A stretch of DNA of 37,492 nt from Pseudomonadota bacterium (lineage in GTDB: Bacteria > Pseudomonadota > Gammaproteobacteria > Xanthomonadales > Rhodanobacteraceae), in assembly GCA_021794575.1 (NCBI GenBank), contig JAJYQO010000097.1:1-37492 (forward strand), read 5' to 3'. Within the stretch, counting starts at the first letter, position 1, and each line of letters opens with the position of its first letter. The notes under the pieces are model-generated. The model saw only the letters and a program-made list of their open reading frames with translations, did no database searches and was not told where the DNA came from. Positions 11,054 to 35,247 of the stretch are shown here, in pieces. The position numbers were made by a program, and so were the translations under genes.

Positions 11054-11698
11054 ATGAACGTCGAAAGTCCCCAGGCCCGCATCTGGTTGTTCGGCACCGC
11101 CGCACTGGCGCTGGTCGGCCTGGCGGTGCAGTTCGTCTGGATGCAAGGGCAGGCCGTGCACGTGGACGCTTGGTGGATGACCCTGCGCTTTCTCAGCTAC
11201 TTCACCATCCTCAGCAACGCTCTGGTCGCGCTGACCTGTGCCGCCGCCGCTCTGGGGCCGCACAGTGTTGCCGGACGGCTGGCGCTGCGCCCGGCGCTGC
11301 GCGGCGCGGTGCTGCTGTACATCCTGATCACCGCGCTGATCTACCACCTGGTTTTGGCCGGGCACTGGCATCCGCACGGCGCTGCGCTGCTGGCCGACAC
11401 CCTGCTGCACACGGTGGTGCCCGCGCTGTACGCGCTGGGCTGGCTGTGGATCGCGCCGGCGCGCGGCCTGCACTGGCGGCATCTGCCGGGCTGGCTGCTG
11501 GTGCCGGCGCTGTATTTCCTCTGGGCCATGCTGCTGGGCGGCGTGCTGCACGCCTATCCCTACCCGTTCCTCAACCTGGCGCGGCTGGGGCTGGAATCGC
11601 TGCTGCGCAACGCCGCCGTGCTGCTGGGCGTGTTCGTGCTGCTGGGCGCACTGCTGGTGCTGCTGGATCGTGGGCTGATGCGGCTGCGTGGGACGTAA
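11054..11698 (+). CDS. Pr6Pr-type six-helix membrane protein
   Basis: The 214-residue protein has about six hydrophobic helices and almost no soluble part. Features typical of the Pr6Pr family (related to FAR-17a/AIG1-like proteins) are RFLSYFTILSNALVAL, ITALIYHLVLAG, LLHTVVPALYALGWLW and the YPYPFLNL segment before the last helix. Its biochemical role is unknown. The ATG at 11054 has no clear ribosome binding site, but upstream in-frame starts run through dacB on the other strand. It stands alone, divergent from dacB by 82 bases, with the integron-type cassette downstream. Confidence 0.8.
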   Translation: MNVESPQARIWLFGTAALALVGLAVQFVWMQGQAVHVDAWWMTLRFLSYFTILSNALVALTCAAAALGPHSVAGRLALRPALRGAVLLYILITALIYHLVLAGHWHPHGAALLADTLLHTVVPALYALGWLWIAPARGLHWRHLPGWLLVPALYFLWAMLLGGVLHAYPYPFLNLARLGLESLLRNAAVLLGVFVLLGALLVLLDRGLMRLRGT

Positions 11699-11819
11699 GG
11701 CCACACGCGTCCCTGTGCATCTGGGGCGGACGATGGTCTGCGCACGCGTTCATTTCCGGCTGCACGCCGCGCAAATCACCGTGAAGCCGGCCGGACGACA
11801 TCCTCTTGTTCTGGATTGT

Positions 11820-11873
11820 GGCTAACGCCTGAGTCAAGCGGCGGCGCAGCCGTCCGCCTTGGACGAGTTAGCC
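11820..11873 (-). other. Integron attC recombination site
   Basis: Read on the minus strand, 54 bases begin GGCTAAC and end GTTAGCC, a perfect inverted pair of core sites. The 3' core context CTTGACTCAGGC-GTTAGCC matches canonical attC ends. The inner arms (TCCAAGGCGG and CCGCTTGA) pair imperfectly with unpaired bases, as folded attC sites do. Strand exchange by an integron integrase would occur after the G of GTTAGCC, between 11826 and 11825. The site lies 58 bases downstream of the VOC stop codon in the correct orientation. Confidence 0.8.
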
Positions 11874-12340
11874 ATATTTGTCGATGATAGCTACGGCGTC
11901 CGCTGCATTGAAATGATTAGAACCAGCATGCTCACGCAGAGTACGGAGCCTGCACCAGGCGCTGAGAAACCCACCAGATGTTACCGTGAGGATCTCTTAT
12001 TCCGCCTTGCCGATCGCCGTACGGCATATCACTGACCTCCATCTCCGGTTTGCCTCCCGCAGCAATGGCCTGCTCCATAGCCTTATCGGCGTCCTCGACG
12101 AAGATGTAGCAAGCAGTAGGCATGGGTGGATAGCTACCACCAGCCTCACTGACCATGATGGTGGACGTGCCGACACGAACCTGTGCGTTCGCGATGCGGC
12201 CATCAGGGCGCAGACTGCGCAGCACCTCGGTACCACCGAACCCCTTGACCAGGAACGAAACAAACCGCTCCGCGTCCTTGACGAAGAAATACGGCGTGAT
12301 GGTGCCAAAGCCTGTAGGGATGTACATGGATTTACCTCAA
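11826..12340 (-). mobile_element. Solitary integron gene cassette carrying a VOC-family gene
   Basis: The proposed cassette is about 515 bases. It starts after the G of GCGTTGAGG (minus strand, 12343-12335), which resembles a 3' attC core, and ends at the attC core at 11826. It contains a single ORF whose ATG lies 13 bases after the boundary, with GAGGT of the boundary acting as ribosome binding site, as commonly seen in cassettes. Base composition and codon use are less GC-rich than the flanks. No integrase gene or neighbouring attC array is in the window. The attC end is well supported; the 5' boundary is an inference. Confidence 0.6.
11932..12327 (-). CDS. VOC (glyoxalase/bleomycin-resistance) family protein
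   Basis: The 131-residue protein has the paired beta-alpha-beta-beta-beta layout of the vicinal oxygen chelate superfamily: an N-terminal module (ITPYFFVKDAERFVSFL, then VRVGTSTIMVSEAGG) and a second one (CYIFVEDADKAMEQAI, then RQGGIRDPHGNIWWVSQ). The GGIRDPHGN.W end is typical of PhnB-like VOC proteins. The substrate cannot be told. A GAGGT ribosome binding site lies seven bases upstream of the ATG at 12327. It is the only gene of the proposed integron cassette, and VOC genes are recurrent cassette cargo. Lower GC than its neighbours supports acquisition. Confidence 0.82.
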   Translation of the reverse strand: MYIPTGFGTITPYFFVKDAERFVSFLVKGFGGTEVLRSLRPDGRIANAQVRVGTSTIMVSEAGGSYPPMPTACYIFVEDADKAMEQAIAAGGKPEMEVSDMPYGDRQGGIRDPHGNIWWVSQRLVQAPYSA

Positions 12341-12429
12341 CGCTTCATGCGGGTTCTAGGCAGTACGACTTTTGCAGTGCGTGGCTGACCTTCGCGGGGC
12401 CATTAGCGCGGGTTGGCGAGATGCCAGAG

Positions 12430-12541
12430 TGTAATGACCCAGTGAAATTCTGCTCAGGTGTTACCGTGAGGAGGAGACATCATGAGCATCGTGATGGAAG
12501 AAGAGATCAAGCGTTGGACCGCGCGGCGGAAGTCGGCGCGG
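12430..12541 (+). mobile_element. Left-end fragment of an IS3-type element with truncated DUF1153-like orfA
   Basis: TGTAATGACCCAG at 12430 has the 5'-TG start and GACCC context of IS3-family ends. A strong GAGGAGGAG site precedes ATG 12482, from which MSIVMEEEIKRWTARRKSA is read. This matches the start of the short DUF1153/helix-turn-helix helper protein encoded before an IS3-type transposase. After Ala at about 12540 the similarity stops and the frame becomes unrelated Arg/Ala/Pro-rich sequence, so the element was cut by a deletion. The next 154 bases to the transporter gene show nothing recognisable. Confidence 0.55.
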
Positions 12542-12695
12542 GGGGTGAATCTGCCGGTTCATCCTGTTGCATGGCAAGCGCGAGCCGCGGGCTGCGAGTG
12601 GCCGAGGTCGGGCCGTTTCTGTTTCGTCTCGCCGTGCGCGGCGGAGCGGCAAACAGGCGCCGCCATGGGCGCGGCAAGTGCGCTGCGCCCGCCCG

Positions 12696-13625
12696 TCACT
12701 CCGCCACGTTCTTCGCCTCGGCGGTGGCCAGCAGTTCCGGCTGCGCGTCGCGGCCGCCGCGGCGCGCCAGCAGCGGATGCGCGAATACCGCCAGCAGGAT
12801 GATCGCCACGCCGACGTAGAACCGGCCTTCCAGCACGCGTTGCTCATGCAGCAGCACGATGGCCAGCACGATGGCGTACACCGGCTCCAGGTTGGTGATC
12901 AACTGCATGCCGAAGGCGCTGATGTTGCGCAGCGCGTGCAGCGACAGCGCGAACGGCAGCAGGGTGCAGGCATAGGCCAGGGTCAGCAGCAGGATGGCGT
13001 CGTGTCGATCGGGCAGCGGGTAGGCCGCCCCCGCGTGCGGCAGCAGCGGCGCCAGCAGCGTCAGGAACGCCGCGCCGGAGCCCAGCTCCAGCGCGGTGAC
13101 GGCCAGCGGGTCGGCGTGTTCGACCAGCCGCTTGTTGAGCGCGCTGAAGCTGGCCACCAGCAGCGCCGAAAGCACGCCCACCGCCACCCCCAGGCGCATG
13201 GCGGCCGGCACGCCGTCGACCACCAGCGCCACGCCGGGCAGCACCGCCAGGGCCAGCAGCAGCTCGCGCGCATCGAAGCGGCGCCGCGCCAGCAGCGGCT
13301 CCAGGAACGCCAGGAACAGCGGCGCGATGGCGATGCAGGTGGCGGCCACCGAGGCGTTGGCCAGCTTGATGGCGCCGTAGAAGGTCAACCAGTGCAGCGA
13401 CACCAGCACGCCGATGCCGGCATAGGCCAGGCGCAGGCGCGACGGCAGCGCGCGCAGCGCGCGCCACACGCGCGGCACCAGCAGCAGGGTGCCGCTGACC
13501 AGCAGCATGCGCCACCACACCAGCGGCAGCGCGGCCAGGGTGATCAGCTTGCCGAGGATGGCGGTGAAGCCCCACAGGAACACGCAGAAGTGGATCTGCG
13601 CGCGCGCCTTGGCGGCGGGACTCAT
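12696..13625 (-). CDS. EamA/DMT-superfamily transporter
   Basis: The predicted inner-membrane protein has 309 residues from the ATG at 13625; a GTG three codons upstream (13634) is also possible. It has about ten helices in two EamA halves. Marker segments are FCVFLWGFTAILGKLI near the start, HWLTFYGAIKLANASVAATC, and in the second half TLAYACTLLPFALSLHALRN and LEPVYAIVLA, which is the conserved Glu-Pro of the family. Members export metabolites or amino acids; the substrate is not predictable. It lies downstream of acetoacetyl-CoA synthetase on the same strand (about 40 bases), possibly co-transcribed. A few C-terminal residues are polar and not conserved. Confidence 0.85.
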   Translation of the reverse strand: MSPAAKARAQIHFCVFLWGFTAILGKLITLAALPLVWWRMLLVSGTLLLVPRVWRALRALPSRLRLAYAGIGVLVSLHWLTFYGAIKLANASVAATCIAIAPLFLAFLEPLLARRRFDARELLLALAVLPGVALVVDGVPAAMRLGVAVGVLSALLVASFSALNKRLVEHADPLAVTALELGSGAAFLTLLAPLLPHAGAAYPLPDRHDAILLLTLAYACTLLPFALSLHALRNISAFGMQLITNLEPVYAIVLAIVLLHEQRVLEGRFYVGVAIILLAVFAHPLLARRGGRDAQPELLATAEAKNVAE

Positions 13626-13665
13626 GGCGGACACATGGCGCGGACGCGCCTGCGGATGGTGTGCA

Positions 13666-32480: not shown

Positions 32481-33574
32481 GCGCCGCGCAGATGTCCACC
32501 CACATTGCCTTGCTGCCTGGTGACGGCATCGGCCCCGAGGTCACCGCCGCCGCCGTGCAGTGCCTCGAGGCCGTCGCCGAGATCCACGGTTACAGCTTCA
32601 GTTTCAGCGAGCATCCGATCGGCGGCTGCGCCATCGACGCCTACGGCACCGCGTTGCCGGAGACCACGCGCGCGGCCTGCCTGACCAGCGATGCCGTGCT
32701 GCTGGGCGCGGTGGGCGGGCCGAAGTGGTCCGACCCGCGCGCGGCGGTGCGTCCCGAACAGGGCCTGCTGGCGCTGCGTGCGGCGATGGGCGTGTACGCC
32801 AATCTGCGTCCGCTGCAGGTGCATCCGCGCGCGGCGCAGTTTTCGCCGCTGCGTCCGGAGAAGCTGCGCCAGGTGGATTTCCTGTTCGTGCGCGAGCTGA
32901 CCGGTGGCATCTACTTCGGCACCAAGACGCGCGAGTCCGACGCCGCCAGCGACCTGTGCCGCTACAGCGAGGCCGAGATCGAACGCGTGCTGCGCCGTGC
33001 CTTCACGCTGGCGCGCGAGCGCCGCCGCAAGCTGACCTCGGTGGACAAGGCCAACGTGCTGGAGACCTCGCGCCTGTGGCGCGCCACCGCGCAGCGCTTG
33101 GCCGCGGAGTATCCGGACGTGGCGCTCGAGCACCAGTTGGTGGACTCGATGGCCATGCTGCTGCTGACCCGCCCGCACAGCTTCGACGTGATCGTCAGCG
33201 AGAACCTGTTCGGCGACATCCTCACCGACGAGGCCGCCGCCATCGCCGGCTCGCTGGGCCTGCTGCCGTCGGCTTCGCTGGGTGATGGCCCGTGCGGTCT
33301 GTACGAGCCCATCCACGGTTCGGCGCCGGACATCGCCGGGCAGGGCATCGCCAACCCGGCTGGCGCCATCGCCAGCGCGGCGCTGCTGCTGCGTTATTCG
33401 CTGGGTCTTCCGGCCGCGGCCGGCGCGCTGGAAAGCGCGCTGTGGCTGGCGCTGGACGAAGGTGTGTTGACACCCGACCTGGGCGGCCACCACTCGACGA
33501 CGGCGCTCACCGAAGCGGTGATCGGCCACTTGTGGTCGCAGTCGGCGGTAGATGCCGCGGTGGCGCGCGCATGA
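32477..33574 (+). CDS. leuB: 3-isopropylmalate dehydrogenase
   Basis: LeuB oxidises and decarboxylates 3-isopropylmalate to 2-oxoisocaproate with NAD. The 365-residue protein starts at ATG 32477 (ATGA with leuD), with GAGGA ten bases upstream. It has [21 protein letters not shown], the Arg-rich substrate part ([16 protein letters not shown]), [43 protein letters not shown] (metal Asp) and [20 protein letters not shown] with the NAD-specific region. It overlaps ilvD by four bases. Confidence 0.96.
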
Positions 33575-35247
33575 GCAGTTCGCATCGCAAACCGCTGCGC
33601 AGCGACGCCATCAAGAGCGGCCCCGACCGCGCTCCGGCGCGCGCCATGCTGCGCGCCACCGGCCTCGATGACGCCGCGCTGCGCAAGCCGCTGGTGGCGG
33701 TGGTGCACACCTGGTCGGATGTCTCGCCCTGCAACCTCAACCTGCGCGATCTGGCCGCCGCCGCCGCCGCGGGCGTCCGCGCCGCCGGCGGCACGCCGGT
33801 GGAGTTCAACACCATCGCGGTGACCGACGGCATCGCCATGGGCACCGCCGGCATGCGCGCCTCGCTGGTCTCGCGTGAGGTGATCGCCGACTCGATCGAA
33901 CTGGCCGTCGAGGGCCACTGCCTGGACGCCGTGCTGGTTCTGTGCGGCTGCGACAAGACCATTCCGGCCGCGGCGATGGCGCTGGCGCGCATGGACATCC
34001 CGGGCCTCGCGCTGTACGGCGGCAGCATCGCCCACGGCGTGCTGGGCGCGCGCCACCTCACCGTGCAGGACGTGTTCGAGGCGGTGGGCGCGCACGGCGC
34101 CGGCACGCTGGATGACGCCGGCCTGCGGGCGGTGGAAACCCACGCCTGCCCGGGCGCCGGCGCCTGCGGCGGCCAGTTCACCGCCAACACCATGGCCATG
34201 GTGCTGACCGCGCTGGGGCTGTCGTTGCCCGGCGCCAACGACGTGCCGGCCACCGATTCGGCCAAGCGCGCGATTGCGCAGCGCTGCGGCGAGCAGTTGA
34301 TGCAACTGCTGGCGCACGGTCCGCTGCCGCGCGAGGTGCTGACCCCGGCCGCGTTCCGCAACGCTGCGCGCATGGTCGCGGCCACGGCGGGCTCCACCAA
34401 CGCCGTGCTGCACCTGCTGGCGATCGCGCACGAGGCCGGCGTGGCGTTCACGCTGGAGGACTTCGAAACCGCCTCGCGCAGCACGCCGGTGATCGCCGAT
34501 CTCAAGCCCGCCGGTCGCTACACCGCCGTCGAGTTGAGCGCCGCCGGCGGCACCATGACCGTGGCGCGCATGCTGCACCAGGCCGGCATGCTGGAGGACA
34601 CACCCACGGTCAGCGGCCGTGGGCTGTTCGCTGAGATCGCCGCGGCGCCGCCGCCGCCGGAGGGGCAGGACGTGGTGCGGCCGGTCAGCGCGCCGCTGAA
34701 ACCGCGCGGCGGCTTCACCATCCTGTACGGCAATCTGGCGCCCGAGGGCTGCATCCTCAAGCTGGCCGGCGCCGGCCGCACGCAGTTCGAGGGTCCGGCG
34801 CGCGTGTTCGAGAACGAGTCCGAGGCTTTCGCCGCCGTGCAGGCGGGTGCCATCCGCGCCGGCGACGTGGTGGTGATCCGCAACGAAGGTCCGGCCGGCG
34901 GCCCCGGCATGCGCGAGATGCTGGCGGTGACCGCCGCGCTGGTCGGCCGCGGCCTGGGCGGTTCGGTGGCGCTGATCACCGACGGCCGCTTCAGCGGCGC
35001 CACGCACGGCGTGATGGTCGGCCACATCGCACCCGAGGCCGCGCGCGGCGGTCCGATCGCGCTGCTGCGCGACGGCGATGCTCTGCGCATCGACGGCGAA
35101 ACGCGCCGCATCGATGCCTTGATCGATCTCGAAACGCGCCGCGGCGGCTGGACGCCGCGCCCGCCCACGGTCACACGCGGCGCGCTGGCCAAGTACGCGC
35201 GCATGGTCGGCTCGGCCGCGCGCGGCGCCATCACCGAAACCGAATGA
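33571..35247 (+). CDS. ilvD: Dihydroxy-acid dehydratase
   Basis: IlvD dehydrates dihydroxyisovalerate and dihydroxy-methylvalerate, the shared third step of Val/Ile synthesis. The 558-residue protein is the short form. Fe-S cysteines appear as Cys54 (SPCNLNL), Cys127 (LCGCDKT) and Cys199 ([12 protein letters not shown]). Other signatures are [15 protein letters not shown] and [20 protein letters not shown]. Length and Cys spacing (73 and 72 residues) fit the [2Fe-2S] plant/cyanobacterial-like class better than the longer E. coli enzyme; that cluster type is an inference. The start overlaps leuB (ATGA). Confidence 0.94.

Follow-up and report, generated by a model that had tools for sequence, protein, structure and literature searches.

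The window analysed here is a stretch of 37,492 nucleotides. Between the convergent genes Pr6 and EamA it carries one VOC/glyoxalase-fold gene with an attC site behind it, the truncated left end of an insertion sequence (IS) and a fragment of an integron integrase (intI) gene (Table 1). The gene order hldE-dacB-Pr6-EamA-AACS is kept in much of the genus. The gap between Pr6 and EamA measures 997 bp in the window versus 22 bp in the congeners G002 and G003, and in five other congeners (G006, G007, G008, G011 and G012) it holds an unrelated block with an oxidoreductase. The original prediction had named conservation of the gene and its flanks at this position in all close relatives as an outcome contrary to it, and this outcome did not occur; no congener with a readable Pr6-EamA junction has the VOC gene or the attC there.

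The Pr6-EamA junction is a variable spot in its own right (L065-L069). In the five genomes, the block encodes an NAD(P)/FAD-type oxidoreductase together with apparent GIY-YIG and zinc-cluster genes. It is absent from G002, G003 and the genome studied here (G000), and a search for the oxidoreductase elsewhere in this genome did not find it. Since the tree is unrooted, it gives no polarity for gain versus loss of the block.

Table 1. Features of the Pr6-EamA interval and its flanking genes, with positions in the window.
Feature	Positions	Strand	Basis
Pr6 (name of convenience), left flank; conserved membrane-protein gene, no Pfam match	11054-11698	+	Synteny hldE-dacB-Pr6-EamA
116 bp beyond attC	11704-11819		No match in congeners
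attC	11820-11873	-	R'' GGCTAAC 11873-11867, R' GTTAGCC 11826-11820 (cassette strand); same type as in the family's arrays
VOC/glyoxalase-fold cassette gene, 131 aa, intact	11932-12327	-	PF00903, E 1.8e-10
5' leader of the cassette, with ribosome-binding site and, near 12361, a putative degenerate 5' boundary	12328-12361	-	Alignment with L093 leader
67 bp between cassette and IS end	12362-12428		76% identity across 70 bp with a locus of congener G002
Truncated left end of IS (transposase/DUF1153 start MSIVMEEEIKRWTARRKSA)	12429-12542	+	Copies in relatives and on Xanthomonas plasmids are 82-85% identical in nucleotides
intI pseudogene fragment, about codons 25-61 of the model	12546-12649	+	nhmmer, E 1.9e-8
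EamA transporter gene, right flank	12696-13634	-	PF00892 and synteny

A genuine attC site with a shortened spacer

The 54-base element behind the VOC gene has perfect 7-base ends (GGCTAAC...GTTAGCC) and folds into a hairpin in which one arm has bulged bases, so that sequence and fold agree with the perfect ends and imperfect inner arms described originally. We aligned 36 attC that stand in arrays of same-family genomes, the window excluded, and used them as a covariance model. The structure of this alignment was well supported, with 94% of cells paired, 8 pairs changed on both sides and none of 500 shuffles as good. In a scan of the whole window, the element was the only convincing site, scoring 66.4 bits (E 1.1e-16) on the plus strand versus 16.5 bits on the minus strand. 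This polarity matches a cassette gene reading on the minus strand, as had been predicted, and the site thereby held up in a covariance search with a model of its own family. Folded with 5-7 flanking bases, the plus strand was better than all of 200 shuffles. Sites near-identical to this attC occur in arrays across the family; an Rfam search of the region gave no match.

An element that sits 3' of a gene end might be a chance inverted repeat or a transcription terminator taken for attC. However, the covariance score, unmatched by any other strong hit in the window, already refutes this reading, terminator prediction does not flag the element, and its polarity and bulged bases are attC-like; we give this explanation practically no weight. 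The element is a real site of the attC type, and it stands behind a single gene and in that gene's orientation, which is the anatomy of an integron cassette. By default, IntegronFinder 2 reports a CALIN from at least 2 attC without intI, and the window has one; single-attC cases can be true positives, as IntegronFinder notes (PMC9024848).

The spacer between L'' and R'' is 5 bases long in 121 of 127 sites of relatives versus 2 bases in the window attC, which has a 3-nt deletion. The orientation and shape of the central spacer influence recombination efficiency (PMC2727003), and the window attC is therefore probably impaired. It probably belongs to the same attC type as the Xanthomonadales-like clade (PMC8352920), our own model being trained on attC of the window's family, but the window copy differs by the spacer deletion. 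The attC type and the IS matches together point to a family within the Xanthomonadales as the source.

The VOC gene and its leader

The VOC gene has a GC content of 59% and a GC3 of 67%, versus a GC3 of 88-95% in neighbouring genes, which bears out the lower-GC VOC gene first noted beside the attC. Its protein has 18 relatives in the genome collection searched. Because the closest of them, L093 in MAG SZAS-56 (84% identical protein), is flanked by attC on both sides, the VOC gene is, as judged from sequence, cassette cargo. The homologues L096 and L102 also have an attC adjoining the gene, and several other VOC relatives have none beside it. The L093 and window cassettes share a homologous leader and an attC after the stop codon, but L093 is part of a small array with other cassettes and its attC is of a different subtype. 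Homologues of the cassette protein were absent from the viral contigs searched, and the plasmids searched yielded only distant VOC proteins (<60% identity).

Between the window gene and L093, dN is low (0.09) while synonymous sites are saturated, so the protein has stayed conserved throughout its history. This subfamily shows changes from H to N and from DPFGH to DPHGN where its VOC relatives have histidines, at positions that we take to be metal sites. Solved structures that match the protein by sequence include TioX and Rv0577. Because the usual metal-ligand histidines are missing, ligand binding, as in VOC proteins of the bleomycin-resistance type, appears more likely than metal-dependent catalysis. 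A bleomycin-resistance gene is among the recurrent cassettes of Xanthomonas (PMC12444791).

Alignment of the window leader with that of L093 scored 34, and none of 300 shuffles scored above 28. GTTGAGG, which the original prediction took for the cassette boundary, is present at 12335-12341, but it aligns with GTGAGGTAATC in the leader/ribosome-binding region of L093, whose true G^TTAGCC boundary lies about 20 nt farther out. By this alignment, the 5' boundary in the window probably falls about 20 bases further upstream than GTTGAGG, near 12361, where the core, G^TTRRRY in a typical cassette, is degenerate (CCTAGAA). Promoter prediction recognised none for the VOC gene. We also considered the 13-bp direct repeat GTTACCGTGAGGA (11979-11991 and 12460-12472) as a recombination scar and rejected it; one copy is VOC coding sequence (the conserved DPHGN motif) and the other lies in the IS leader.

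Integrase and IS remnants beside the cassette

The original prediction saw no intI in the window and placed the cassette away from any visible integrase, which does not hold. A nucleotide HMM built from 15 intI genes found the fragment listed in Table 1; the next match in the window had an E value of 0.1, and the reversed window gave nothing better than 1.2. A scan with the TIGR02249 protein HMM alone misses the fragment. A DNA search of relatives with 12345-12700 gave matches that fall on the relatives' intI, and the intI genes of many relatives match the very codons retained in the window. The fragment, about 104 bp or 37 codons long, is damaged by a TGG to TGA stop and a 2-base deletion that shifts the frame. 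Integron intI usually reads away from the cassettes, and here too the remnant diverges from the adjacent cassette, reading rightward at about 220 bp from the VOC gene, as in a decayed integron. The IS stub is cut and fused directly to the middle of the N-terminal region of intI, which suggests a deletion spanning the IS-intI junction.

The 67 bp between cassette and IS are delimited by the cassette start and the IS end, and the stretch that they match in G002 is intergenic (L116:1501-1569), with no intI or integron detected at that locus. An attI, as expected of a complete integron, is not recognisable in these 67 bp, which show no similarity to the attI regions of relatives. On the other side, the 116 bp beyond attC may be where a further cassette, now lost, began; a search for a second-cassette ORF there gave no significant match.

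Origin of the locus and integron decay in the genus

We consider it probable (roughly 80%) that the locus (11704-12694) represents a chromosomal integron decayed to a single cassette, a relic of an already documented kind, the inactivated chromosomal integron. The original prediction had left two possibilities, a lone cassette at a secondary site or an integron relic. The second is now favoured and the first has become unlikely, because an intI piece in canonical orientation lies so close to the gene. An integron with intI, attI and at least one cassette would formerly have stood between Pr6 and EamA. An IS would then have inserted on its integrase side, a deletion would have joined intI, from about codon 25 on, to the interior of the IS, and the remaining intI would have been lost up to the end of EamA. 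Left over would be the frameshifted piece of some 37 codons, the IS stub, and a single cassette whose VOC gene is intact and whose attC lacks 3 spacer bases. Judging from its anatomy and the homologous cassettes elsewhere, the cassette was presumably captured through IntI recombination of a folded attC, and any expression of the VOC gene would come from a local promoter. With 3 spacer bases missing from the attC and no intact intI detected in the genome, the cassette has probably become an immobile, fixed gene.

The decayed integron is supported by the attC, with its high score, right polarity and occurrence of its type in family arrays, by the VOC homologues in the L093, L096 and L102 cassettes, by the divergent intI fragment with the IS stub at the junction, and by the 22-bp gap in G002 and G003. 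Further support comes from the genome at large, where no intI exceeds the cut-off and two other intI relics are present, on contigs C97 (with three attC) and C9. Against it stand the lack of a recognisable attI, with the expected place taken by 67 bp matching a congener locus without detected intI, and the shortness of the intI piece. The intI piece and the cassette may also have arrived independently, and the draft assembly of 100 contigs could hide an intact intI.

It is conceivable that IntI acting in trans put a lone cassette into a non-classical attG site, the adjoining intI and IS pieces being unrelated debris. The locus has a single attC, many attC loci elsewhere in the genus have no intI match in the flanks examined, which mostly span about 5 kb, and integration at attG has been described (Loot et al. 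2024, as cited in PMC12444791). Those lone cassettes, as presented there, resemble the window in being single and chromosomal, but the window cassette has an adjacent intI fragment, in canonical orientation, and the R' box at its far end has the complete GTTAGCC core seen between array cassettes, which alone is no bar to an attG target. We regard this origin as very unlikely. An integron fragment (intI end and first cassette), already truncated, might instead have been brought from elsewhere by the IS or by recombination. An IS stub does lie within the relic, and in X. oryzae pv. oryzicola an intI locus ringed by transposases is reported away from ilvD (PMC12444791). However, the relic has a single IS end and shows no target duplication, and the cassette region has no second copy elsewhere in the genome; such an import seems improbable.

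The normal place of intI in Xanthomonas is downstream of ilvD, and the gene has often been inactivated (PMC12444791). As described there, in part after Gillings et al., intI of inactivated integrons and CALINs is broken by frameshifts, stops and large deletions while the cassettes stay, also away from ilvD. The window shares with these integrons the broken intI, the cassette left in place and the distance from ilvD. It differs in that the relic lies between Pr6 and EamA, has only one attC and leaves no remnant near ilvD (33292-35247, plus strand), where window scans gave no attC or intI signal; adjacency to ilvD, as in Xanthomonas, was accordingly rejected. A further difference is that this 2.5-Mb genome has several separate intI relics.

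The draft assembly contains no intI above the TIGR02249 cut-off, and the window locus, with only its damaged fragment, is no complete integron. On its contig C97 (L149, 34565-37371), near the contig end, intI has an in-frame deletion of about codons 47-290 and is accompanied by three attC with cassettes and a likely attI; this is a second decayed integron. Contig C9 (L153, 73355-76240) has an N-terminal intI fragment (codons 1-70) and one weak attC, followed by co-oriented RibD-like, VOC-like, methyltransferase and SnoaL-like genes, and is probably a third, more decayed one. The genome thus probably holds three dead integrons, including that of the window.

Genus-wide, intI fragments and attC are common at many loci. 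In the congener G009, the stretch directly 5' of the EamA gene holds a GNAT gene, a decayed attC and an attI-like sequence (contig C97, L154, 5141-6092). This one-cassette remnant is on the opposite side of the EamA gene from the window relic, and no intI was detected in its contig. One speculative idea, which we rate as rather doubtful, is that the genus has no single ancestral ilvD platform and takes up whole small integrons again and again at many loci, perhaps at preferred sites (such as either side of EamA, as in the window and G009), and then destroys each, leaving permanently captured cassette genes scattered over the chromosome.

The locus shows a route from a mobile cassette to a fixed chromosomal gene. 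It also shows that an attC that looks "solitary" can be what is left of a true integron, its integrase having decayed too far for protein HMMs to detect. Tools that seek only intact IntI proteins would call the window locus an orphan attC, and some of the orphan attC in surveys may therefore be misread as secondary-site insertions.
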